Assembly (NCBI GenBank): GCA_014925825.1
Contig: JACGCK010000001.1
Coordinates: forward strand, 186,001 to 250,000
Source of the DNA: Pholiota molesta
Lineage: Eukaryota > Basidiomycota > Agaricomycetes > Agaricales > Strophariaceae
DNA length: 64,000 nucleotides
Direction: 5' to 3'
A model generated the notes under the pieces. It was not told where the DNA came from. It saw only the letters and a list, made by a program, of their open reading frames with translations, and did not search any database. Both the position numbers and the translations under genes were made by a program. This document shows positions 5,384-47,815 of the stretch, in pieces. How positions within the stretch are numbered: the stretch's first letter is position 1; the number at the start of each line of letters is the position of its first letter.

Positions 5384-6380
5384 ATGATTACGCCCGTAGT
5401 TAAATCTAAAACCCATGTATCGTTGTAAAAGTTGTCGTCCAAGAACCTGTACCATCTAAGTACTCGCGCAAATGTTTACGTTGGTTGTTGTGAATCATTC
5501 ATCTGTGACGCAAAAGTTGTATTTGCGCGTTGAATTATCAGTGAGTGCTCATTAATTTGATTGGGACACCATTCCAGCCCCGAGCCTCACAATTTTATCA
5601 GTCCCTACAAGTACCGCAATATTTAGCGCAACCTATATGGCGGCGCTGCCTCAACGGATAGGTATTTTCTTACACGGATCAATCGCCATCGCCGACACTT
5701 CCTTACCCGAGTCCTCAATGGCACAAGCATTATCAACCATGTCAGGAGAAACGATGTGGATAGGGCACGATGCGTGCAGGGGTTGACGAATGAAGTGATG
5801 ATTGGTGTAAGCAACACTGCCAATTCCAGACTCTGAATCAGTGGGCGTGTTTATTTCCCAAGTGGGCTGAGAAATCGCCTATGGGTGTTGGGGATGTCTG
5901 TGCCGTTTTTGTATGGAATGGACGATCCCATTCAGCGGAGGCTATGTAGGACGAATGAAACAAGGAATGCGAGATACGGGCGATATGGGCGTCTCTTTTT
6001 AGAGCTATCAGCCTCGATCAAGGGTGGCTTGGCGCTGAGCGCCCGGATCAGCAGCTCCAGGTACACACACAGCGCCCCGGCATCCCACCCGCAGAAATCC
6101 TCTGGAATTCGACCATTTGACGCTTGTCTTATGTATTCAGATTCATGATTTTATCGGGCCCTAAAATCCTTTATTTCTGGTGTCTTGACATGATCCTCAT
6201 GTTGTCTGTCTCTTTCCATTTCGCAGCTTAGAAACAGACTTGACAGTCCGCACTATTCGAGGGTTGGCCTATATCATCGCAAGTGGATATAGCTCAGTAT
6301 CATCATAGACACGAGTATATGCAAAGAAATAGCGAGATCTTGAGTTTCTAACATTCATGATCAATCTCGCAGTGAACGCT
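5384..6380. other. gene-free stretch after lipoxygenase
   Basis: There is no supportable gene. A diverged trace of the downstream tandem repeat (GGGCGTCTCTTTTTAGAG near 5988) may be a decayed extra unit. Confidence 0.5.
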
Positions 6381-6384
6381 TGGA

Positions 6385-7575
6385 CGGGAGGCGTGGGCGT
6401 CTATTTTTGGACCCTAATCGTCCGTGCCACCGCCGATATGCACAATTCGAATCAGTGCTTTCAGCGGCGCAAGTCAATAAATGTCGGGGCTGGGCTACAC
6501 AGTAATCTAATACTAGATTCAATACCTATGGAGCCGCCGTTAGTGCTCACCCATACGGTTGTTCGCTGTCACTCAAGTTCCAACGTCCCCGGGATCAGCA
6601 GAGGCCATCTGAGCGGAGGTATATACGTCCAGTTCAGTTCCCGGGGCCTTCTGTGTAATGATGTTCTGTCATCGGTGAAGCTCAGCTGAAAGGGTGCGGG
6701 AAGAGGTTACCACGAAAGAGCGGTGTGTGATTCGAGTGGGGGAGGTTGAATGGAACACAGCAGCTACATATGATCGCTTGAAGTCGACATTTGGAGGCAT
6801 GGGCGTCTATTTTTGGACCGCAATCGTCCGTGCCACCGCCGATATGTGCAGATCGGCGCTTAGTGGCGCATGTCAGGAAATGGCGGGCTGGGCTACACAG
6901 TATGTAGCTGCGCTAAGTCCATCGGGAGCCCCAGAACAACTCGGAACCATGACAAGTACAATCTAACAGTTACTGGATTCAACACTTATGGAGCCGCCGT
7001 TAGTGCACACCCAAATGGTTTGATTGTTCGTTGTGACTCAAGTGCCAACGCCCTCGGGATCAGCAGAAGCCATTTGCGTGGGGGTACGTAAGTTCAGGTT
7101 CCCGGGTCCTTCCTTCTCTATAATGATGTTAATGACAACCTACCTACCTCCCAACTCGGCGACAAGGGTGTCTGGGAATGGAACACAGCCCCTACGTATG
7201 TTGTACGTATGATCGCTGGGAGTGCATGTTGGGACGCGAGGCATGCGCGTCTATTTTTGGAGCCCCATCGTCCGTGCCACCGCCGGTATGTGCAGATCAG
7301 CGCTTAGCGGCGCATGTCAAGAAATGGCGGGCTGGGCTACACAGCAGCTGCGCTAAGTAAGTACATCGGGAGCCTTGTGACAATTTGTACAATCGCATAT
7401 TGGAGTCAATGATACTGATGGCCCCGTCGTTAGTGCTCACCCAAATCGTTCTTCATTGTGACTCAGGTCCAACTTCCTCGGGATCTGCAGTCGATCTGCA
7501 GAAGCCATTCGTGCGGCGTTACGCAACTGCAGTTTCTGGCTGTTTCTCTGGTCCTTCTGTGTCATGATGTTCTAT
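6385..7575. repeat. three diverged tandem units of about 405-445 bp
   Basis: The block containing GGCGTCTATTTTTGGA, followed by CATCGTCCGTGCCACCGCC or a close match, occurs at about 6395, 6803 and 7245. Each unit also carries a GGGATC(A/T)GCAG...GCCAT block (about 6591, 7058, 7479) and an ATGATGTT block near its end. The spacing is 406 and about 444 bp. No conserved reading frame runs through the three units, so this is a non-coding tandem duplication or remnants of a repeated element. Confidence 0.8.
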
Positions 7576-12474: not shown

Positions 12475-14759
12475 TCACTCGCTTTCGCTGTCGTCCTCTT
12501 GCATCATCCCCACCTCGTACTCGCCGCACACATCCCAGCGCGAGCCCTCAGCCGCGGCCGACACGTATTTCACGAACCGCATCACGCGCTCGTCCCGCAG
12601 CACCAGCAGCAGCCTATTGAACCCGGGCTGCACTGCCAGCAGCGTGCTGTCCTCCTCTTCCGCGTCTTCGTCGTCGTCGTCGTCTGCCTCCATCTCCATT
12701 GCTTCCGCCTCGTGGTGCTCCTCGGGAGCGTCGTCGCCATTCGTCGTCTCTGTGCGTCCTTTTTCTTCTCGCGGCCGTGAGCCCGAAGCTGTAGTTGAGG
12801 ATGAGTCCGGCGCTTTTGACTTCTTGTGGCTCCCTGAGCGGTAGATGGCAGGATCGTCTTCCTCGTTGTGTGGGGCCATGTAGCACTGTAAAAAATAAAA
12901 CAAAAATAGATGTTCAACACGAATACGCAATGAATATAACAGCACAACCGTACCTCCCAGCCACCCCATTCCGCAGCCTGCCACCCCCTCGGGTTGACCG
13001 TATACGGGTCATGCAGATCGTCCATCTCGAGATCTCGCGCCGGCGGCGTGAGCCCCAGCACCACATCCAGCCGCGCCTCCTTCTCCTCGCTCGTCGCGAG
13101 CGTATAGTCCAGCCCCGGGCGGAACCGCCGCGCCTCGACCGCATGCCGTATCGGCATCAGGCGGCTCACGATCGCGAGCCACGCGCGGAACGCGGGGCTC
13201 GCGAAGAGCTCGTCCTGCAGGCTGCGCAGGATGCTGTCCGTCGACGACGCGTAGCGCGGCGCGACGGCCTCGCGCGGCCCGCCCGCCTCGTGCGGGCGCA
13301 GCACGCAGTAGCGCCACTTGTGCGGCGGGCCCTTGAGCGCCCAGTGCCCCGCGGTGCCGGCGGTGTGCGGCGGGACGCACCCCGCGCGGTCCGCGCCGAG
13401 CCCGTCCTTCGCGTCGAGGTCGCGCAGGCGCGCCTCGAGCGCCGCGGCGAGGTGCGCGGTGAGGAAGGAGTGCAGCTCGAGCGAGGACTCGCTGATGAAG
13501 CGCGTCGCGAGCGCGTTCATCGTGCGCGGCTGGAGGTAGACGGGGTTGAGGAACTCGCTGAGGAACGCGATGTGGTCCTCTGAGAGCGTGGTGCTCGGGA
13601 GGAGTGCGTCGTCGGCCTCTGGGTAGGATTTGAAGACGGTCGAGGTCGATGTCTGCAAAAATGAATCAGAAAAGCTTTGCATCCCGGAAGCTGGCTAGGA
13701 GCCGGAAGAGGACGTACGAGTTGCTCACGCGAGCTCTTCACTTCGACGGCCGCGGGGGGCTCGGGGACATATCCCGGCTCGCCTTCCTGGGCCGCATGGA
13801 ACCACCCGCTGATGCTCAGCCGTTCTCTTCTATCCTCGCCCTTCGCGCCCACCACGACTTCTTCGACCGAGTGGAACGACTTTCCGGGCTGCACCTCGAA
13901 GAAGATGAACTGGTTCCAGCTCGGCGGGATGCTCTTCACCGGGATCGCTTCGGGCTCGGGCTGGCCGTCCTCGTTCATCCGCACGGGGTAGAGCTCGAGC
14001 GCCCCGCCCCAGTCCTTGTTCCATAGCTGGTAGTGGGGCAGGGGCATGTAGAGGATGTAGGATACACGTCTTGTGCCGATCACATCGTCGTGATTGAGCA
14101 GATGGCAACCGCGGGTGTACGAGTTGACAGACATGTCTTGTTTTTTCCCTGAGAGAGGCCCGCATCCCGTCACCGAGCGCAGGAAGTCGCGGAAATGAGA
14201 CGAGTAGAGGGCGTCGCGGAGGGCAAGGAGGCTTGGGAGGCGGGCGATTTGAGTAGGTGTAAGGAAGTTGAGCGAGGCCAAATCGCCTGTTTGATTCACC
14301 TGTGAGATGCATGAAGGAACAGCGACTTTAACTTTGACATGTCCCAACGATTTGACAGAGTTACTCAAGAATCCATAGAAAGACAAGTACCTTGTAGATG
14401 TCGGTTTCCTTCTCCGAGAAACTGAGCTCACTTAAACACTCCTCCTTCACCTGCTTCAGCAAATCGTCCTGGAAGAGCTTTTCCACTATAGCGTATTTGA
14501 AGGGCGTGCTTTCGACGTAGTCGGAGTGCAGGCGGGCGATGTTATTGTGATCGAAGAGATCATTTGCGAAGTGTGGCGTTGGATCTTTTGACAAGATGAG
14601 CGATTCGGTGCTGATGTCTGTCGGTGGGGTTGGATAATGGGAAGGCACTGCATCTTCGCGCGAAACCGAGGATGGATTATGGGTAACCTTGAGCTTCTTG
14701 ATCAGCTGTGGTGACGTGGAGGTTTCAGGGTCTGGCGATCTTTCGCGGGTTCTGGTCAT
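12475..14759 (-). CDS. TPA1: prolyl 3,4-dihydroxylase TPA1/Ofd1 (OGFOD1 family)
   Basis: This is a 2-oxoglutarate/Fe(II) dioxygenase. In yeasts the family hydroxylates a proline of ribosomal protein uS12 and, in fission yeast (Ofd1), controls SREBP stability. The exons (minus) are 14391-14759, 13718-14299, 12954-13652 and 12475-12885, about 686 residues. The catalytic domain lies in exon 2: KQDMSVNSYTRGCHLLNHDD holds the HxD pair (about His193 and Asp195), followed by VIGTRRVSYILYMPLPHYQL. The distal His is in KSFHSVEEVV and the 2-oxoglutarate Arg in RLSISGWFH. The second, degenerate double-stranded beta-helix domain typical of the family fills exons 3 and 4 (CYMAPHNEEDDPAIYRSGS near the end). 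An acidic insert (12640-12700) precedes the conserved tail. An in-frame ATG 14 codons upstream (14801) is an alternative start. Confidence 0.93.
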
Positions 14760-18274: not shown

Positions 18275-18644
18275 CAACCCCAACAACTCAAAACGATACA
18301 TAACGGCTCTCCTAAAACGTGATCTTCTGCCCTTGGCTGGGCGCCCTCCGACTCGCGCTTCGCCAGCGCCAGCGCCGCCCCAGGCTTCGGGCGCGTCTTC
18401 GGGCCCTCGTGGCGCGCGCCCTCCGCGGGCGCGACATACATGCGTCTTCGCCTCCCAAGCCCGCTCCGGCCGTGCGGGCGCGTCCGCCGCATCGTCGCCG
18501 TCGCCATCGCCCCCGGGTGTTGCGCTGGCGCCGCCGCCGTCCGTCGCGGACGGCCGCATCGCGGCGCGCGTCTGCAGGGGTCCGCGGCGGACCGTTCGCC
18601 GGGGGGCCGGAAGGATGCCGCGGCGCACGGTGTCGGGGCTCGCG
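18275..18644 (-). pseudogene. 3' part of a duplicated NOP13-like gene, broken
   Basis: Read on the minus strand, this matches the last exon and 3' flank of the NOP13-like gene at 41690-43339 (parent about 42980-43390). One frame keeps the residues EGARHEGPKTRPKPGAALAL, against EGARHKGPKTRPKPGAALAL in the parent. The end of the frame is shifted, so the terminal GQGQKITF-like codons are in another frame. Homology continues past the stop into the 3' flank. It stops abruptly at 18644, where the foldback element begins, and resumes at 24290. Confidence 0.85.
18634..18644. repeat. left target-site duplication, CGGGGCTCGCG
   Basis: The same 11 bp occur at 24290-24300. In the intact parent gene the sequence is present once (as its reverse complement, in CGCGAGCCCCGAC), so the second copy arose with the insertion. 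Confidence 0.8.
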
Positions 18645-18673
18645 GATATCATTCATATGTAAACACCATATAA

Positions 18674-18737
18674 CACCCTGTACATTCGTGCCAAATACAC
18701 CCTGTACATTCGTGCCAAATACACCCTGTACATGCAG
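18674..18737 (+). repeat. subterminal direct repeats, 24-bp period, left end
   Basis: CACCCTGTACAT starts at 18674, 18698 and 18722, and the first two copies continue TCGTGCCAAATA. A degraded copy (CACACGGTACATCTC) follows near 18745. Inverted counterparts sit at the right end of the element. Such subterminal motifs are commonly transposase binding sites; that role is inferred. Confidence 0.8.
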
Positions 18738-19009
18738 CTCATGTGCACACGGTACATCTCTGCCAAGTGCACCCAGGACATTCACCGCCACCTCCCATAC
18801 AGATATTGCAGGGGTTGGCTCAGCTTCTCTTTCTTTACTATATAATATTGTGTACGGATATCTATGTTACTGAAAGTGATTATTATGACTAGAATACACT
18901 TATAAATGTTTAAACTGGGTAGATATAGTACCAGATGAGCTGTGCATGCCCAACTACTGGGTAGATGAGCCCCGACACAGGCGGCAGTGGCTTTGCGGCC
19001 GCGCAAGGG

Positions 19010-20285
19010 ATTCAGATCCAGTGGAATTACACTGGATTGGGTCGCGCGGGACTGAATATGCGGCCGCGCAAGGGATCCAGTGCAATTCTACTGGATGAAC
19101 CCTGCGCGATGGATCCAGTGGAATTTCACTGGATGGGCCCCGCGCGAGGGATCCAGTGGAATACCACTGGATGAGCCCCGTGCGAGGAATGCAGTGGTAA
19201 TCTACTGGATGAGCACCCGCGAGGGGGTTCGGCCGCGCGCGAGGGATCCAGTGGAATACCACTGGATGGGTCCCCGCGCGGTACATCCCCTCGCGCGCGG
19301 CACGAGCCCCAAGGGGCTCATCCAGTGGTATTCCACTGGATCCGTCGCGCGCGGCGCATCCAGTACGCGTGGCGCATCCAGTACGCGCGGCGCATCCAGT
19401 ACGCGCGGCGCATCCAGTATGCGCGGCGCATCCAGTACGCGCGGCGCATCCAGTATGCGCGGCGCATCCAGTACGTGCGGCGCATCCAGTACGTGCGGCG
19501 CATCCAGTAGAATACCACTGGATCCCTCGTGCGGGGCTCATCCAGTGAAATTCCACTGGATCTGTCACGCAGGGCCCATCCAGTAGAATACCACTGGATC
19601 CCTCACGCGGGGCTCATCCAGTGAAATTCCACTGGATCCATCGCGCATGTGTGAAGAATACCGAATACAGTGAAATCTCACCGGATGTGCGCCACATGAG
19701 CAATCCAGTGGATTTTAACTGGATTGGCACCGCACGAGCAATCTAGTGGATTTTCACTGAATTGGTGCCATACGAGCAATCCAGTGGAAATCCACCGGAA
19801 CAATGCTGCACGCGCAATTCCAGTGAATATTCACTGGAATTACACCCCGTATACCTAGGGCAATGCGGCGCATGCGCTCAGTGTAGCGTGTACGCGTGCG
19901 TGCAGCAATGCGGTACACGTGCTGGTGGGCGGTTATTTGCAGCGCGTGCGCTCGCATTGCATGTGAATTAAATGACTCACATAGCGCCGTGCAAGCAATC
20001 CAGTGGATATGCACTGGAATGGCGCCGCGCGAGCGATCCAGTGAGTATCCACTGGATTGCTCACGCGGCACCGATCCAGTGAATTTGCACTGGATGTGTA
20101 CAGAACACCAAATCCAGTGAAATTTCACCGGATGTGTGCCGCGCGGGCGATCCAGTGAATTTACACTGGATGTGCGCCACGCGAGCAATCCAGTGAATTT
20201 ACACTGGATGTGCGCTGCACGAGCAATCCAGTGCATTTACACTGGATATGCGCGGGACACTGAATCCAGTGAAATAACACTGGAT
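19010..20285. repeat. left hairpin array, about 24 units, 38-bp period
   Basis: Each unit is a 22-bp near-palindrome of the form ATCCAGTG-loop-CACTGGAT, for example at 19112, 19149, 19540, 19578, 20148 and 20263. Units are separated by GC-rich spacers of about 16 bp containing GCGCGAGCA-like sequence. Loop bases vary (AATT, AATA, TTTA, ATAT and others), but the stems mostly stay paired. The array is interrupted by the 18-bp tandem block at 19355-19510 and by about 140 bp of non-array sequence at 19845-19985. Confidence 0.85.
19355..19510 (+). repeat. 18-bp tandem repeat, about 9 copies
   Basis: The unit GCGCATCCAGTACGCGCG repeats about nine times with single-base changes (ACGTG, ATGCG variants). 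It contains only one half-stem (ATCCAGT) of the hairpin unit plus the spacer, so it looks like slippage of a truncated array unit. All frames are open because 18 is a multiple of three; the resulting hexapeptide repeats are not taken as protein. Confidence 0.85.
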
Positions 20286-21178
20286 TTTCCGCCGGCGCTG
20301 TTATTTCCACTCGGCATCAACATGATATCCCACCGCGGGATATTGCCCAAATAGGGTGCACCGCGGGCGCTCCCCGACTGATGCGCGCATGCGCATCCGT
20401 CCTCCTGCCTGTTGGCACAGAGAATGGGCTCCAGCTCAGCCCAATTACCTTCGTTCCTTTCGCATTTTTGCACATAGATAGACATATTATATAGGAGTAT
20501 TAATGTATAGATATTTAACGAATACATATCAGGTTATCTATCAAAACAGGTGTTTCTTATGGCAGGGGAGGGGGAGCAGAGGAAGGTATTTGCCTTAAAC
20601 ACATGGGGACTCTTATATAAAGGTACATATAGTATCTATGCTATTATAAGTGATAATCTACTGAGCTATAGCTTTCCAGGAATTAATAGAAGTGACCCAC
20701 TAATATCCTGATACATATACATAGCCATATATAGCATGTATAGGTTTATTTCTGTGGATATAACGAAGTAGAAAAATACTATATAGCACCTACATTAATT
20801 TAACCGAGCAATACTAGTTTTTTTCTGCTTGAAAAGGGTCATGAGGAGGTGAAACATGCCAAGAATGTCTAAAATGCGTATTCAGCCTATAGAACTACCA
20901 ATAAGTGCTCCACAATTCTGTAACGCTAAGACGTGATAGCCCTAATAAATACCTACAAAACGAGCTAATTTAGAGGACGATCGAATGTGTTAGTGGAAAC
21001 ATAGAAGCTATTAAGTTGTGCGTTTGCGACCAGAGTTTGCGACCCATTTAGTATGCGACCGTGTGTGACCACAAAAAACGTAAAATGTCTGTAAATTTAC
21101 AACTATATATTCTAAAATTCTGAAATTTCTGCGCTGGGTAGCTCTAACAGATATCTACAAAACGGGATATGCCGGAAG
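20281..21178. repeat. left arm of large inverted repeat
   Basis: It pairs with 21343-22553 in reverse complement with very few mismatches, apart from one indel of about 318 bp. It is AT-rich in its inner part and has no gene. The inner boundary is at ATATGCCGGAAG. Confidence 0.9.
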
Positions 21179-21342
21179 GTAATCGGAGCAGCGAATAGAA
21201 ATATATGCTGGAAACATTGTTCAGAACATCGAAATACATCATGACTACTCGTGATACAATTATGGAACTATGTTTGGATCATGTTCAAATGATGTTCATC
21301 AAAATATTTTCTTCATATCATTTGAACCTCTGACTCGATCTT
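21179..21342. other. loop of the foldback element
   Basis: This is unique sequence of about 164 bp between the arms. It holds a smaller 11-bp inverted repeat, GTTCAAATGAT (21284) and ATCATTTGAAC (21318), separated by about 23 bp. Confidence 0.8.
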
Positions 21343-22553
21343 CTTCCGGCATATCTCGTTTTGTAGATATCTATTAGAGCTACCCAGCGCAGAAATTTCA
21401 GAATTTTAGAATATATAGTTGTAAATTTACAGACATTTTACGTTTTTTGTGGTCACACACGGTCGCATACTAAATGGGTCGCAAACTCTGGTCGCAAACG
21501 CACAACTTAATAGCTTCTATGTTTCCACTAACACATTCGATCGTCCTCTAAAGTAGCTCGTTTTGTAGGTATTTATTAGGGCTATCACGTCTTAGCGTTA
21601 CAGAATTGTGGAGCACTTATTGGTAGTTCTATAGGCTGAATACGCATTTTAGACATTCTTGGCATGTTTCACCTCCTCATGACCCTTTTCAAGCAGAAAA
21701 AAACTAGTATTGCTCGGTTAAATTAATGTAGGTGCTATATAGTATTTTTCTACATTGTTATATCCTAAGAAATAAATCTATACATGCTATATATGGCTAT
21801 GTATATGTATCAGGATATTAGGCCTCATTGGGGGCCTTTGTCTATATGTTCCAACCATTTTAGGTATATTTTAGCGATATTAATAGATAGGTAGAGCCAG
21901 GGAGAGCCTTAATCCAAAGACATTAGAAAGATATCTCTGTTTGATGCTGAGATATAGGCCAATGTATCCATAGGTAGATAAGTCAATAGGAGTGGATTAA
22001 CTGTATCTATGGCACTTCTGGCTGCATATATTAAGCTACATAGGTATAATACACCATGTAAAGTAATTGAATTGATAATAAGAGCATTGGAACATGTCAC
22101 TTTCATACCCTATGACACCCTCCCTCTAGATCTCCCCATGGGTCACTTCTATTAATTCCTGGAGAGCTATAGCTCAGTACATTATCACTTATAATAGCAT
22201 AGATACTATATGTACCTTTATATAAGAGTCCCCATGTGTTTAAGGCAAATACCTTCCTCTACTCCCCCTCCCCTGCCATAAAAAACACCTCTTTTGATAG
22301 ATAACCTGATATGTATTCGTTAAATATCTATACATTAATACTCCTATATAATATGTCTATCTATGTGCAAAAATGCGAAAGGAACGAAGGTAATTGGGCT
22401 GAGCTGGAGCCCATTCTCTGTGCCAACAGGCAGGAGGACGGATGCGCATGCGCGCATCAGTCGGGGAGCGCCCGCGGTGCACCCTATTTGGGCAATATCC
22501 CGCGGTGGGATATCATGTTGATGCCGAGTGGAAATAACAGCGCCGGCGAAAAA
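21343..22553. repeat. right arm of large inverted repeat
   Basis: This is the reverse complement of 20281-21178. It carries an extra segment of about 318 bp at about 21821-22138, between TATCAGGATATTA and GGGTCACTTC, that the left arm lacks. That segment has a 65-codon open frame on the minus strand (21909-22106) that I do not recognise. Confidence 0.9.
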
Positions 22554-23940
22554 TCCAGTGTTATTTCACTGGATTCAGTGTCCCGCGCATATCCAGTGTA
22601 AATGCACTGGATTGCTCGTGCAGCGCACATCCAGTGTAAATTCACTGGATTGCTCGCGCGGCGCACATCCAGTGTAAATTCACTGGATTGCTCGCGCGGC
22701 GCACATCCAGTGTAAATTCACTGGATTGCTCGCGCGGCGCACATCCAGTGTAAATTCACTGGATCGCCCGCGCGGCACACATCCGGTGAAAATTCACTGG
22801 ATTGCTCGCGCGGCGCACATCCAGTGTAAATTCACTGGATTGCTCGCGCGGCGCACATCCAGTGTAAATTCACTGGATTGCTCGCGCGGCGCACATCCAG
22901 TGTAAATTCACTGGATTGCCCGCGCGGCACACATCCAGTGAAATTTCACTGGATCGCTCACGCGGCGCCGTGCAAGTTATTTGATAATTCACATGGCACA
23001 TGAGCGCACACGCTGCATAGTCCCCGCCAGCGCACGCACTGCACTGTCACACGCGCGCGTACGCGCCATATTGCCCTACGTCCGTGTACACGCTGCAACC
23101 CAGCGGATATTCACTGCAATGGCACTCGCGCTGGCGTGGGACAATGCGGTGCGTGCCCTCGCGTGGGGTCGTGCAGCACGTACGCGTGTGCGAGAATGTG
23201 GCGAGTGCGCTTGCGTGACATAGGAACCCAATAAGTGGAATGCAGGTGCGCAAGCGATCTAGTGGATATTCATTAGATCAGTGCCGCGCAAGCAATCCAG
23301 TGAATACTCACTGGAATGACTCAGCACAAGCGATCCAGTGGATATTCACTGGATCGGTGCCGCGTGAGCAATCCAGTGAATGTTCACTGGATCGGTGCCG
23401 CGTGAGCAATCCAGTGAATGTTCACTGGATTGGTGCTGCGCGAGCAATCCAGTGAATGTTCACCGGATCGACGCCGCGCAACCTAGCCTGTGGACATATA
23501 TCTTCCTGGACCGCTCGCGCGGTACTATGCCAGTTATTTTATGCATATGTCATGCGAGCGGATGCGCCGTATTGTCGGACGCCAGCGCACACGCCGCGTT
23601 GCCCCACGCACGCGGGCGCCATTCCAGTGGATATCCACAGGATCGCTCGCACGGCACCGATCCAGTGAATATCCACTGGATCGCTCGCGCGGCACAGATC
23701 CAGTGAACATACACTGGATTGCTCACGGGGCACCATTCCAGTGGATTTCCACTGGATTCTTCGCGCCAGTGCATGCCACTGCACGCGCCGCATTGTCTCA
23801 CGCACGCGGGCGTCATTCCAGTGGACATTCACTGGATCACTCTCGCGGCATAGATCCAGTGAATATACACTGCATTGCTCGCGCGGCACCATTACAGTGG
23901 ATTTCCACTGGATTCTTCACGCGGCTGTGTTTCAGTGGAT
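22550..23940. repeat. right hairpin array, about 24 units
   Basis: It uses the same 22-bp hairpin units as the left array, with spacers in inverted orientation (TGCTCGCGCGGCGCAC). 22611-22960 is a nearly perfect 38-bp tandem array of about nine units, the most homogeneous part. Further units occur at about 23262-23475 and 23620-23935, separated by non-array GC-rich sequence (22970-23250 and 23480-23610). Confidence 0.85.
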
Positions 23941-24180
23941 TTTGCATAGATAGCATCTGAATCGGATAGCATGGGCTCCGGAAGCTCGCCATATGGGAGA
24001 ATAACTGACTGTAACATAATTTACTAATATACTTGACATATAGTATGTACCTAGACTGTATAAGTATTCAATTGGAAGCCGGCGCCGCTCAGAATGTCCC
24101 TATGTGATGTCTAATAACTCCTTATCAACCTAACCTTGGACTGGATTATCGCAGGCGCGGTGAGCTTCACGTGACTATGT

Positions 24181-24289
24181 TCCTGGCGCTGTTGTGTGAG
24201 ATGTACCGGGCGAGTCTTGGGGAAATGTACAGGGTGAGCTTGGGTGGTATGTCCCGTGCGTTATAACGTTATTTATGTTGCACTATACC
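24181..24289 (-). repeat. right terminal region with inverted subterminal repeats
   Basis: Read on the minus strand, CACCCTGTACATT, CGCCCGGTACATCT and CGCACGGGACAT occur here in inverted orientation relative to the left end. With the adjacent ATAAC they align with the first 50-60 bp of the left terminus. Confidence 0.7.
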
Positions 24290-24500
24290 CCGGGGCTCGC
24301 GTATTCGACGAGGAGCTTCAATACCCCTGAAAGCCACCTATGATGTTGACGAGGGCGGCGGTGGCGTGTTCTACAGAGAGGAAGTCGACGAAGGCGAATC
24401 TGGAACATTAGGGGGTGCTGTTAGCATAATGAACAGCTTGGCTGTCGAGAATGGAGGTACCCTGTGCACATTCCGAAATCTTCGAAAGTGCCCAGGTCCA
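24290..24500 (-). pseudogene. 5' part of the split NOP13 pseudocopy
   Basis: On the minus strand this matches parent 42770-42990. It keeps CTTCGTCGACTTCCTCTCTG, the upstream exon end (GGCACTTTCGAAGATT...) and, between them, the last intron with its GGTACCTCCATTCTCGAC 5' part. The retained intron shows duplication at DNA level, not through mRNA. Homology fades above about 24500. Confidence 0.85.
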
Positions 24501-25129: not shown

Positions 25130-25730
25130 GCGCCATGCGTCTGATGCGCCTCCTCTGTTTGAACTTGGTTTTCTCTTCAGGCTATAAATAACTTGAATGC
25201 GCGTCAATTGTGCTCTGGCCTATAAATAAATTGCTCCCCATATCAGGCGCACTTTCCGTTTACTGAACCGAAAAGTATACTGGATCGATGGAAAAGATGC
25301 CACAAACCCTTCGCGTAGCACGCGCACCACCAATGGGTACCTGTCCAGAAGGCCAGCGTCCACCAGGGCATGCCGCCATGCCCGCCACAAATAAGGCGTG
25401 ACGGGCTCAGACCTCTGCACGAGAACAAGCGCTGGCCCCATGCGTGGAGCCGCAGCCCGAGCATTTGTGTCGAGCCCCATGGCGGGAAACTGAGCATCCG
25501 AGTTCCCGCTGCCAGTCGACGCAGAGAGGCTCATTGTCGGTACATAATCGTGACGAGCACACCTCGCGAGCTTCGGCGACTGAAGGTGTCGTGGGCCTTG
25601 TCACATGGGCTCGCGGTATCGGTGGGTCGGATCGCTCGGTTCATGGGTCATTTTGCTCGACGCCTGCATTCTTTGGGCTGCGCATGCATATTCCTTCGAT
25701 TGATACATAATTCTGTAGTAATTGATAAAA
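25130..25730 (-). mobile_element. transposon fragment, copy A of a dispersed repeat
   Basis: This is the reverse complement of 47205-47815 with roughly 85 percent identity by eye. Both copies encode a related open frame (here 25220-25534, minus) with the shared words SGNSDAQFPAM, ASFPSIQYTF, SKRKVRLIWGA and RYP(L/S)VVRVLR. A W/YP/GF...PSI pattern of this kind occurs in the N-terminal region of fungal retroelement or recombinase polyproteins. That link is tentative, and no enzymatic domain is present in the fragment. Confidence 0.65.
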
Positions 25731-37010: not shown

Positions 37011-38392
37011 CTACAGCTTCGCCTGGTACCCCGTCGCCTTCTCCTCCTTGACGTCGTTCACCAGCGTGCCAATCCCATTCCCGAGCCACACGCTCATCCG
37101 ATCGCCGTCCTTGAGGTACTGCGGCGGGCTCTTCACGAACCCGACGCCCTTCGGCGTGCCCGTCAGGATGATCGTGCCCGGCTCCAGCGTCGTCCCCTGC
37201 GAGAGGAAGGCGACGGTCTGGCGCACGGTGAAGATCTGCTCGCTGGAGGGTGGTAGGGTTATGGGCGTGACTGGAGAAGAGGCCGGGGTGGATGACTTAC
37301 GCGGTGGTACCGTCTTGCAGTGTGACGCCGTTCACGACGGTTTTGAGCAGGATTTGTTGCGGGTCGGTGATGATGTTGTTGGAGACGAGACAAGGTCCTA
37401 GGGGGTTGGTGTTATCTAAAATGAAAAAGTCAGTAATGTGGTTACACGGCCAATTCAACAAACAAAACACAAAAACGGTGGTCTGGATTTAGATGATATT
37501 GAGGCGACGGTAAACGCACCGAATCCTTTGGAGAAGCCCCATTGTGAGACGGCCAGTTGGTGTTTGCGGAAAGAAACCTGTCGGAATATTCAAGTAAGTT
37601 TCGCGGTCTTATTACGGACCCATAGGCATAGCTCACATCATTGGCGCAGGTGTACCCAAGCACGTAGTCCAGTGCATCCGCCTCGCTGACGTCCTTCGCG
37701 GCCTTGCCGATGACGATGACGAGCTCGACTTCGTAGTCCGGCAGGTGTTCTTTTGGCGGCTGGGCCACGCGTGGGATGACCACCGTCGCGAGGGGCCCGA
37801 TGAGCGATGTGACGGGCTTGTAGAACAGGATTGGAAAGCTGTATGGAGTTGAGGAAGAGATGTTAGACGGTTTGTTAGGCGCAGAAGAGATGCGGGAGAC
37901 GCACGCGGGCTTGGCCATCTTTGCTTCAGCCTAGATATTCATCCAAAAGGTGAATCCTTTGCAGAGAGTTTAAAGCAACATGAGCACGCACTGCATGGTC
38001 GGAGTAGTTCAACCCAAGGCAGCGCACGACCTTGATCTCCTCGTTCGAGAGCGGCGCGAGAAGCTTGGACACAGTCAGCACCTTCTTGGTGACCTGCGCC
38101 GCGGGGTCCAGGGCAGAGCCCACGATCTCGAAGGCTTTGATAGGTTTGCCTTGGTAAGCTGCCAGTCCGACTGCGAGGGTGGTCATTGAACATGCTTCCA
38201 AGTCCATGGACGGTGTGGCTCACCATCGAGGCTGGCGTCAACTGGCTGGCCGACATGGACGCGGGATGTTTCGGCGGCGACGAAGCGTATGAGGCGGGAC
38301 CATTGCTGTGGTATGCAAGTGCTAACTGTTAGCTTCAAGTTTCCAGTCGCTGATAACTAGGAGTATGAACGCACCGTTCTGATTGGGGCCAT
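37011..38392 (-). CDS. fumarylacetoacetate hydrolase (FAH) family protein
   Basis: The exons (minus) are 38375-38392, 38224-38305, 37992-38149, 37905-37930, 37637-37838, 37520-37577, 37301-37415 and 37011-37242, giving 296 residues. The FAH fold is shown by KVVRCLGLNYSDHA, PILFYKPVTSLIGPL, the metal-binding DYEVELVIVIGKAAKDV (Glu-x-Glu) with the later Asp in GYTCANDVSFRKHQL, and GTIILTGTPKGVGFV. The length fits the acylpyruvase/FAHD-type branch (oxaloacetate decarboxylase or acylpyruvate hydrolase), not true fumarylacetoacetase of about 420 residues. The exact substrate is not readable. It is convergent with SSADH (241 bp between stops) and head to head with the CDC14 gene. Confidence 0.9.
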
Positions 38393-41689: not shown

Positions 41690-43339
41690 ATGGCGTCGTC
41701 GGCCTCCTCATCCAAGAGCGCCAGCCCGGAACCACCGAAAGTCGAGAAGAAACTGAAGCGCAAAAGGAGAGAAGCCGCCAAGGACGCAGAGGAAGCTGCA
41801 CCTACCGAAGAGGCACCAGCCAACGACGCCGAGGACACCACCGATGCGCAACCCCAACCCGACGACGCCGACGCCGACCCCGCGCCCGAGGTGCCCGTCC
41901 TCTCACACGCCGAGCGCCGCCGCCAAAAGAAAGAAGCCAAGCTCGCCGCCGCACAGGCGAAAGAAGAGGCCGCCGCAGAGGCCGCCGACGGCGCCGCCGC
42001 GGTGAAGAAGCGCAAGCTCAAAGACGGCTCGGCGAAGACGGTCGTCGCCGCCGACGCAGATTCGGGGAAGCCGAAGCCGCGCCAGAACTCGGTGTGGGTG
42101 GGGAACATGTCGTTCAAGACGCAGCAGGAGGATCTGCGGCGGTTCTTCAAGGATGTGGGCGAGATTACGAGGATCAACATGCCGACGAAGGCGCCTGCGG
42201 GGCCGGGCGTGAGGCCCGAGAATAGAGGGTGAGTCTGGGACTGCACGATGGAAGAGTGTTTGGATGTTCATGTTGGTTTGCAGATTTGCGTATGTGGATT
42301 TCGCAACGGTGGAAGTGAAGACGAAGGCTATCGCTCTGTCAGAGCAACCCCTCCTTGGTCGTAAATTGCTCATCAAAGACGGTGCGCACTATATACCCCT
42401 GCGTAGTATTATATACGGGACTAACATTTTTTAGGTGATAGCTTTGAGGGTCGTCCTGCAGCCACCGCCGCTGGCGAACTCACTCTGAGCGACCCCGCCC
42501 TCGTACAAAAAATCCACTCAAAAACTGCCCAAAAAATCCTGCGCTCCCAAAAACAACCTCCCGCGTCTACGCTGTTCCTCGGAAATCTAGGATTTGAAAC
42601 GACAGAGGCCTCAATCCGCCAGCTATTAGATGCGCATAGGCCGGGGAATAAGAAAGGCAAAGATGTTGCCAAGGACGCCCCTGTGGAAAAGGATGCCGCC
42701 GAAGAGATGGACACTGCTCCAGATGGCGAGGTGGACTCGGAAAAAGCGAAGCCCAAAGACGAGTGGATACGACAGATCCGCATGGGCACCTTCGAAGATT
42801 CCGGATTGTGCAAAGGGTACCTCCATTCTCGACCGCTTACCTGTTGATTTTGCTAATAACAACCCTGATTTTTCAGCTTCGCTTTCGTCGACTTCCTCTC
42901 TGTAGAACACGCCACCTCCGCCCTCATCAACCCCAAAAACCACCACCTCGACGGCCGGAAGCTCCTCGTCGAGTACGCGAGCCCCGACGCCGTCCGCCGC
43001 GGCGCCAACCCCTTCCGGCCCCCCGGCGAGCGGGCCGCCGCCGCGAACCAGGGCAAGAAGCGCCCGCACCGCACCGAGCGCCTGCAGGCGCGCGCCGCGA
43101 TGCGGCCGGCCGCGACGGACGACGGTGCCAGCGCCCCCGATGGCGATGGCGACGACGAGGCGGCGGATGCGCCCGCACGGCCGAAGCGCACCTGGGAGGC
43201 GAAGGCGCATGCCGCGCCCGCGGAGGGCGCGCGCCACAAGGGCCCGAAAACGCGCCCGAAGCCCGGCGCGGCGCTGGCGCTGGCGAAGCGCGAGTCGGTG
43301 GCGATCGTGCCCAGCCAAGGCCAGAAGATCACGTTTTAG
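41690..43339 (+). CDS. NOP13: nucleolar two-RRM protein, NOP13-like
   Basis: The exons are 41690-42228, 42284-42381, 42435-42816 and 42877-43339, giving 493 residues. An N-terminal Lys/Ala/Glu-rich region (SHAERRRQKKEAKLAAAQAK) precedes RRM1 (about 133-215: NSVWVGNMSF as RNP2, RGFAYVDF as RNP1) and RRM2 (about 254-350: STLFLGNLGF and KGFAFVDFLS). Between the RNP motifs of RRM2 is a long acidic insert with APVEKDAAEEMDTAPDGEVD. The basic C-terminus has GQKKRPHRTERL-type sequence and ends GQKITF. Yeast Nop13 is a nucleolar pre-ribosome-associated protein. The last exon, the last intron and the 3' flank exist in a second, broken copy at 18275-24500. Confidence 0.9.
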
Positions 43340-43936
43340 GAGTGGCTATTAGTATGTCTCTTTTTGCGTTGTTGGGGGTACTCGGAGTGGAAAGAAATTT
43401 TCGCATAGGGCTGGAACGTACCGCAGCCCGTTGTGATATAGATGGCGTTGCTGTTTGCGAGTTGAGAGAGAAAGATCGTGACGGATGTGAGCTGTAGATC
43501 AACCCGGAATCAACAACGATTCGACGGATGGAGTTGAGAGGCGAGTTTCTCTTCGATGGTCGACTCCCAGCGTGGGTGGCAGGCTGAGCATTATCTCGTG
43601 CGCGCCATATCGCACTATTTGAATATCATCGATCAGCGCTTGCGTCGATCATTAGCCAGTGAAATCATACCCTTTTTAGTAAGTGGGTTTCCAAAATAAG
43701 ATCATCCACGTATGTACCTCAGGCCAGTTTGCGCTAAATTCAAAGAGTGTGTATTTTAAGTTTGGAAGACTATCACTAAATCTAATAACAGTACATAGTA
43801 GCGTATAAATTAAGATGTACACAGTAAGAAATGTAAACTATCATCGATCAACTAATCCTATGGGCGTATATATGGAATTTCGGTATTGTCCATTAGCTGC
43901 ACTGATAGGCATTCAGCACATTGATGTCCGGTTTGC
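43340..43936. other. intergenic region
   Basis: This is the 3' flank of NOP13 and of the convergent minus-strand gene. There is nothing else. Confidence 0.6.
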
Positions 43937-47204: not shown

Positions 47205-47815
47205 CTAAACTCAGGCTACTAGTTACTACAGAATTATGTATCGATTCAGGAGATATGCATGCGCAGCCCAGAGGGGGCGGGCGAGCAATGACCCATGAAA
47301 CGAGCGGTCCGAGCCACCGATACCGCGAGCCCATGGGACGTTGCCCACGACACCTTCAGTCGCCGAAGCTCACGAGCTGTGCTCATCACGATTATGTACC
47401 GACAATGAGCCTCTCTGCGTCGGCTGGCAGCGGGAACTCGGATGCTCAGTTTCCCGCCATGAGGCCTGACACAAATGCTCGGGCTGCGGCTCCACGGGAC
47501 ATGGAGCTAGCGCTTGTTCTCGCGCAGAGAAAGTCTGAGCCGTCACGCCTTATCTTATCTGTGGTGGGCATGGATGATGGCGGCATGCCCTGGTGGATGC
47601 TGGACAGGTACCCTTCGGTGGTGCGCGTACTACGCGGAGGGTTTATGGCGTCTTTTCCATCGATCCAGTATACTTTTCGGTCCAGTAAACGGAAAGTGCG
47701 CCTGATTTGGGGAGCAGTTTATTTATAGGCCAGAGCATAATTGACGCGCATTCAAGTTATTTATAGCCTGAAGAGAAAGCAAACGGAGGAGGTGCATCAG
47801 ACGCATGGCGCACTG
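47205..47815 (+). mobile_element. transposon fragment, copy B of a dispersed repeat
   Basis: This is the inverted partner of 25130-25730. The open frame here runs 47108-47728 and its second half (from MSLSASAGSGNSDAQF) aligns with copy A. The flanks outside the shared segment differ, so these are separate insertions or truncated pieces of one family, not a local duplication. There is no catalytic domain. Confidence 0.65.

Follow-up and report, generated by a model that had tools for sequence, protein, structure and literature searches.

What moves a transposon-like element that carries no gene of its own? The question is raised by a 64,000-nucleotide stretch of the basidiomycete Pholiota molesta (contig JACGCK010000001.1, positions 186,001 to 250,000; the window), in which a foldback-like element interrupts a duplicated fragment of a NOP13-like gene. 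Such gene-less elements may be without a known mover, Tetris being an example (PMC4079207). Our analysis indicates that the window element very probably belongs, as a nonautonomous member, to a family of KDZ (Kyakuja-Dileera-Zisupton) DNA transposons, because it has exact ends, an 8-bp target-site duplication, an uninterrupted counterpart of its insertion site, many further copies in the genome, and larger relatives with such ends that carry a CxC4-KDZ gene. Since one genome holds the uninterrupted site, several subtypes and coding members whose ends are of the same kind, this KDZ transposition system is open to testing.

The insertion into the duplicated NOP13-like fragment is real. In the assembly searched (65.6 Mb, 625 contigs), the flanks of the element match window positions 42783–43377 on the opposite strand, in pieces at 84%, 79% and 80% identity, and the homologous contig C127 carries the duplicate fragment uninterrupted, with a single GGGGCTCG near position 38153 and with the parent segment approximately 18.4 kb away. 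The preliminary description of this locus had taken both flanks for one duplicated piece of the NOP13-like gene and had called for comparison with a site lacking the element; the flank matches and C127 bear out the former and supply the latter. The duplication that it reported at the insertion site likewise stands, at a different length: 11 bp is contradicted by the other copies of the element and by the uninterrupted site on C127, both of which give 8 bp, and the same comparison places the element, entered there under 18634..24300, at 18643–24291. The longer duplication was apparent because the extra C is the last base of the element and the extra CG its first two, matching the flanks by chance. 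The sequence CGGGGCTCGCG, said to occur once in the parent and twice at the element, has four matches in the window, one of them at 13193 in unrelated sequence.

Searching the genome with the 5' end of the element, we obtained 23 match pieces at 15 loci, of which 13 are complete on one contig, and every one of these 13 (12 together with the C96 copy described below) is flanked by an exact 8-bp duplication, in answer to the earlier call for copies with the same termini. A strong consensus was absent among the 14 duplications of the family that we compared. By their first bases the complete copies form two subtypes, subtype A beginning with CGGATATC (window, C36, C615, C52 and C27) and subtype B with CGAGTATC (C567, C58, C608, C298, C591, C70, C43 and C96), and the last bases of the compared copies of both are GCACTATACCCC. 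Among the incomplete loci, C124 reaches its contig end and C40 runs off its contig. The long internal palindrome of the window element is present in 12 of the 13 complete copies, in a shortened form in C615; a search for the palindromic core gave no match in C96 or in the C124 part. Contig C94 and the 11.5-kb copy on C27 have 7.0 kb at 99.2% identity in common, as well as the 3' flank CTTTGACC; the left half of C94 differs from the C27 copy and bears other KDZ exons, and relative to C27 this contig may be either a rearranged allele or chimeric.

The architecture of the window element (Table 1) agrees with that described earlier, comprising subterminal repeats, hairpin arrays, near-identical arms and a short loop. 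The long palindrome is internal (19984–22854) and the ends are weakly inverted; the long terminal inverted repeats of the Foldback class are absent. The exact inverted 13-mer CACCCTGTACATT occurs in four of seven copies tested (window, C36, C615 and C52) and is absent from C27, C567 and C591. We counted 47 hairpin units in the window element, compared to a mean of 0.0 in 20 shuffles. Judging from the alignment, the 317 bp confined to the right arm (21822–22138) were probably present ancestrally, the left arm having lost them. As the earlier statement that no transposase is visible had it, the reading frames of at least 150 codons inside the element are translations of the arrays and ends, with no transposase among them. 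Additionally, the longest open reading frames (ORFs) in six cores, at 55–82 codons, are of lengths also obtained from shuffled sequence (30 shuffles per core). The possibility that the element holds an RNA gene was rejected, none of the eight Rfam matches (E up to 0.5) reaching the gathering score; all eight belong to microRNA hairpin families and lie within the hairpin arrays.

Table 1. Features of the window element, its insertion site and the parent segment (window coordinates).
Feature	Position	Strand	Basis or remark
Left target-site duplication GGGGCTCG	18635..18642	+	Other copies; single copy in the C127 uninterrupted site
Whole element, 5,649 bp, CGGATATCATTC ... GCACTATACCCC	18643..24291	+	Same ends in C36, C615, C52, C27
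5' terminus, weak imperfect inverted similarity to 3' terminus	18643..18687	+	5 of 2000 shuffles score equally well
5' subterminal 24-bp repeats with CACCCTGTACATT, inverted near 3' end too	18673..18733	+	Repeat analysis
5' hairpin array, ~38-bp units each with a 22-bp palindrome; 18-bp repeats at 19348-19509	19015..20288	+	
Outer left arm, extends ~300 bp into hairpin array	19984..20699	+	94% complementary to 22139-22854
Palindromic core, ~2.2 kb, common to elements of other terminus types; homology starts near CTCGGCATC	20310..22529	+	
Inner left arm	20700..21230	+	95% complementary to 21291-21821
Loop, 60 nt, inverted in copies C36, C52, C27	21231..21290	+	
Inner right arm	21291..21821	+	531 nt, 95% with inner left arm
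317 bp confined to right arm	21822..22138	+	Alignment with L029 and L030; core spans
Outer right arm	22139..22854	+	716 nt, 94% with outer left arm
3' hairpin array	22552..23925	+	
Right target-site duplication GGGGCTCG	24292..24299	+	Comparison with other copies
Parent NOP13-like segment; the interrupted fragment is its duplicate	42783..43377	-	Flank alignment

The preliminary description had also proposed to look for a full-length relative encoding a transposase, and larger relatives with a CxC4-KDZ gene were found at two places. The first, C96, is complete at 18,481 bp, has subtype B ends, the duplication CTGGCAGG and 61 or 64 hairpin units (by two patterns), and on its opposite strand contains gene pieces matching CxC4 (2.2e-47) and KDZ (1.8e-4, below the Pfam cut-off). 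The second, C124/C111, spans at least 28 kb over two contigs, starting with CGGATATC and finishing with GTTGCACTATACCCC, like subtype A; C111 holds the matching 3' end with the same duplication CAATGTCC as C124, and the two contigs have 631 identical bases in common, inside a repeat. Hairpin arrays are present in C124 together with matches to CxC4 (9.5e-47), KDZ (5.7e-4) and Tet_JBP (2.9e-5), the latter two under the Pfam cut-offs. The CxC4 proteins of C96 and C124 are 79% identical; of the four CxC4 loci found in the genome two lie inside this family, and the other two are ~50% identical. Aligned over ~200 aa with the ends of named CxC4 proteins, the KDZ piece of C96 is 70% and that of C124 79% identical, and three named CxC4 proteins that we scanned themselves score 20.1–25.1 bits for KDZ versus the Pfam gathering cut-off of 26.6. 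The termini are shared with an element encoding a KDZ transposase, as expected of a nonautonomous KDZ member, on one contig in C96 (subtype B ends) and split over two in C124/C111. Genome-wide there are five Tet_JBP matches, the sub-cut-off Tet_JBP-like exon being borne by C124, the longest member. Across the 65.6 Mb, 128 KDZ-domain match pieces were obtained from 119 candidates, and the genome is therefore rich in KDZ transposons.

These features accord with fungal KDZ transposons as reported in PMC12730594, where Zisupton and Dileera make 8-bp duplications, the length seen in 13 of 13 copies here, and Kyakuja makes 7-bp duplications and has CA..TG ends. The coding members resemble KDZ transposons also in their KDZ exon, CxC4 cluster and, in C124, TET/JBP-like exon, whereas the window element, unlike coding KDZ transposons, is gene-less. 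With 8-bp duplications and CGGATATC..TATACCCC ends the window family departs from Kyakuja as characterised there, and we assign it at the level of KDZ as a whole, a level that spans Kyakuja, Dileera and Zisupton. Among the papers listed by literature searches on KDZ, foldback elements and Pholiota molesta, none dealt in its title or abstract opening with nonautonomous or palindromic KDZ elements, and PMC12730594 uses 'non-autonomous' and 'palindrom' once each.

Because the window element has no transposase gene and its larger relatives have one, movement in trans is the natural reading. The CxC4-KDZ transposase would act in trans, recognising the ends together with the subterminal or array repeats, excising the element and reinserting it at a staggered cut of 8 bp; a gene-less palindromic core has presumably taken the place of the coding interior. 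The arms of this core exchange sequence with each other, as patchy conversion and inverted loops in the copies show, and such exchange would keep the palindrome in being as the families diverge. These comparisons support the view that a gene-less, foldback-like element has transposed. Several observations nevertheless weigh against this account. No transposition event was observed, mobility being read from sequence. C124/C111 is broken across contigs within a repeat that is found elsewhere too, and, as its 5' region is ~81% identical to that of the window element, it may represent a third subtype and not the direct partner of the window element; the complete coding member, C96, belongs with subtype B. 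The KDZ matches are partial, at 20.1 and 21.7 bits versus the gathering cut-off of 26.6. As for the arms, the left and right inner arms of subtype B are 43–84% alike per 100-column window (means over seven copies), a full-arm comparison places B left and B right arms in separate groups, and the arms of C190 are 86.8% alike. Since the B inner arms differ in all seven copies and the full arms group apart, complete homogenisation is rejected for the inner arms of this subtype, and exchange is patchy.

The palindromic core extends beyond this family, core-related sequence being present at no fewer than 33 loci in all, a lower bound given that 40 of 42 candidates were scored. Of the 33 loci 18 were read, all of them palindromic, and besides the subtypes they include four terminus types with duplications of 8, 8, 7 and 9 bp. 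Two elements, C1:884348-886829 and C264, are wholly palindromic with CACCTG..CAGGTG ends and 8-bp duplications (CACATCAA and CGCTACCA); C61 and C190 are wholly palindromic with CACCTAAGG..CCTTAGGTG ends and 7-bp duplications (read by eye); C18 and C500, of 1,547 and 1,546 bp, have 9-bp duplications (read by eye). The C18/C500 element (L031, L036) has GTCGATTGGTATAACTCG near both ends and a shortened copy of the palindrome. CACCTG and CACCTAAGG ends have CACCT and TTATTAG in common and may be distant relatives, so that at least three, and not four, types are without evident relation. The first four of these elements resemble the window element in having a homologous palindromic core and loop, and differ from it in their ends and in lacking hairpin arrays. 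Core homology starts sharply, with differing sequence beyond it among element types, and no hairpin-array units were found in six elements of other terminus types, which makes arrays and core separate modules. Elsewhere, an 8,389-bp element on C333 has ends corresponding to the terminal 117 bp of the CACCTG type, 532-bp inverted repeats, the duplication CATGGTAG and a KDZ exon (8.4e-25), and gives no match to the window element; a second pair of CACCTG-type ends, on C152, flanks a KDZ match.

How the same core came to lie between different ends could have a simple answer, namely that each family formed its own palindrome by fold-back duplication, the identity of the arms reflecting recent origin and not exchange. 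In line with this, four members of the initial set of 15 elements (C1:884k, C264, C27 and C52) have arms that are identical over a 299-nt block, in which the first two are 20–28% different from other families. We nevertheless consider independent formation rather unlikely, as the loop is homologous across the array and CACCT types, is inverted in some copies, and the B arms are mosaic with exchange in both directions. In a tree of the 299-nt block, arms of one family cluster together irrespective of side. In subtype B, two left arms (C608 and C591) look like right ones, and two right arms (C567 and C43) fall among the left ones. Trees constrained to unite all seven B arms of one side in a single clade were rejected on this block (p 2.3e-6 for left and 0.004 for right), these being natural sets tested after the tree had been inspected. 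In C70 one window reaches 100% arm identity, where the other six B copies stand at 80–87%. Three of the four A copies retaining the loop (C36, C52 and C27) have it in the opposite orientation to the window element and to all seven palindrome-bearing B copies; in C615 no loop was found. The idea that selection favours one RNA strand of the palindrome was rejected, mismatches between arms showing no clear bias (403 G-T, 351 A-C and 515 transversions over 18 elements, whose copies are not independent).

The palindromic core of the window element looks borrowed. Tentatively, and as one possibility that we hold short of even odds, the palindrome with its loop could be a hitch-hiking module, kept by arm exchange and passed among lineages with four terminus types, where it would replace coding interiors, ride on a transposase that recognises the borrowed ends and persist through some advantage to its carrier (e.g. 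by aiding repair once the element has been excised, or by giving rise to double-stranded RNA). One palindrome common to several terminus types is the part of these results that deserves follow-up, its recurrence together with arm exchange making a case for asking why a gene-less palindrome persists in transposons.

For the mover of the family, an alternative to the KDZ transposase is that the KDZ genes of C96 and C124 travel along, as passengers or nested insertions, and that the family is mobilised by some other transposase that went unseen. The genome has many KDZ matches (128), C124 contains repeats common to other loci and is split over two contigs, and the ORFs of C96 and C124 were classified in part, all of which leave some room for passengers. 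Against this, two of only four CxC4 loci lie inside these termini, in the same orientation and with the hairpin arrays of the family on both sides, and the duplication is 8 bp, the length reported for Zisupton and Dileera (PMC12730594); we regard the alternative as unlikely. The complete and split coding members are better read as KDZ transposons whose transposase would also serve the gene-less copies.

Mutator-like elements (MULEs) usually make target-site duplications of 9–11 bp. The preliminary description had seen a Foldback/MULE affinity in the window element, which has the long inverted arms and internal tandem repeats, and 9-bp duplications do flank the palindrome-bearing C18 and C500. 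Most Foldback elements, moreover, seem to be Mutator, to which Tetris, with 8–10-bp duplications, is assigned (PMC4079207), so the 8 bp of 13 of 13 complete copies, although outside the usual range, counts weakly against such an origin. Against it stand also the CxC4-KDZ exons of the coding members, the internal position of the palindrome, and the finding of no Mutator transposase in a subset of ORFs submitted to Pfam (six of C124 and ten of C96). With coding relatives that carry a KDZ-type transposase, the MULE affinity is left unsupported and very improbable. Galileo and Tetris, foldback-like elements of Drosophila, do resemble the window element in their long inverted arms, internal tandem repeats and gene-less copies (PMC2775673, PMC4079207). 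Galileo belongs to the P superfamily, and Tetris, for which repeat homogenisation was suggested, is a suggested Mutator element whose coding partner was not found. In both, however, the long inverted repeats are terminal, whereas the window element has short ends and an internal palindrome, and the transposase of its coding relatives is of KDZ type.

That the inverted arms are an assembly artefact is hardly conceivable: palindromes are hard to assemble and the left halves of C94 and C27 disagree, yet the palindrome recurs in 12 of 13 complete copies at different sites, with tree-like arm and loop differences between copies.

Other repeats in the window lie outside the element. Positions 25165–25652 and 47287–47783 are inverted repeats of 93% identity, 22 kb apart, and three imperfect direct repeats with a spacing of ~400–460 bp occupy 6366–7450.

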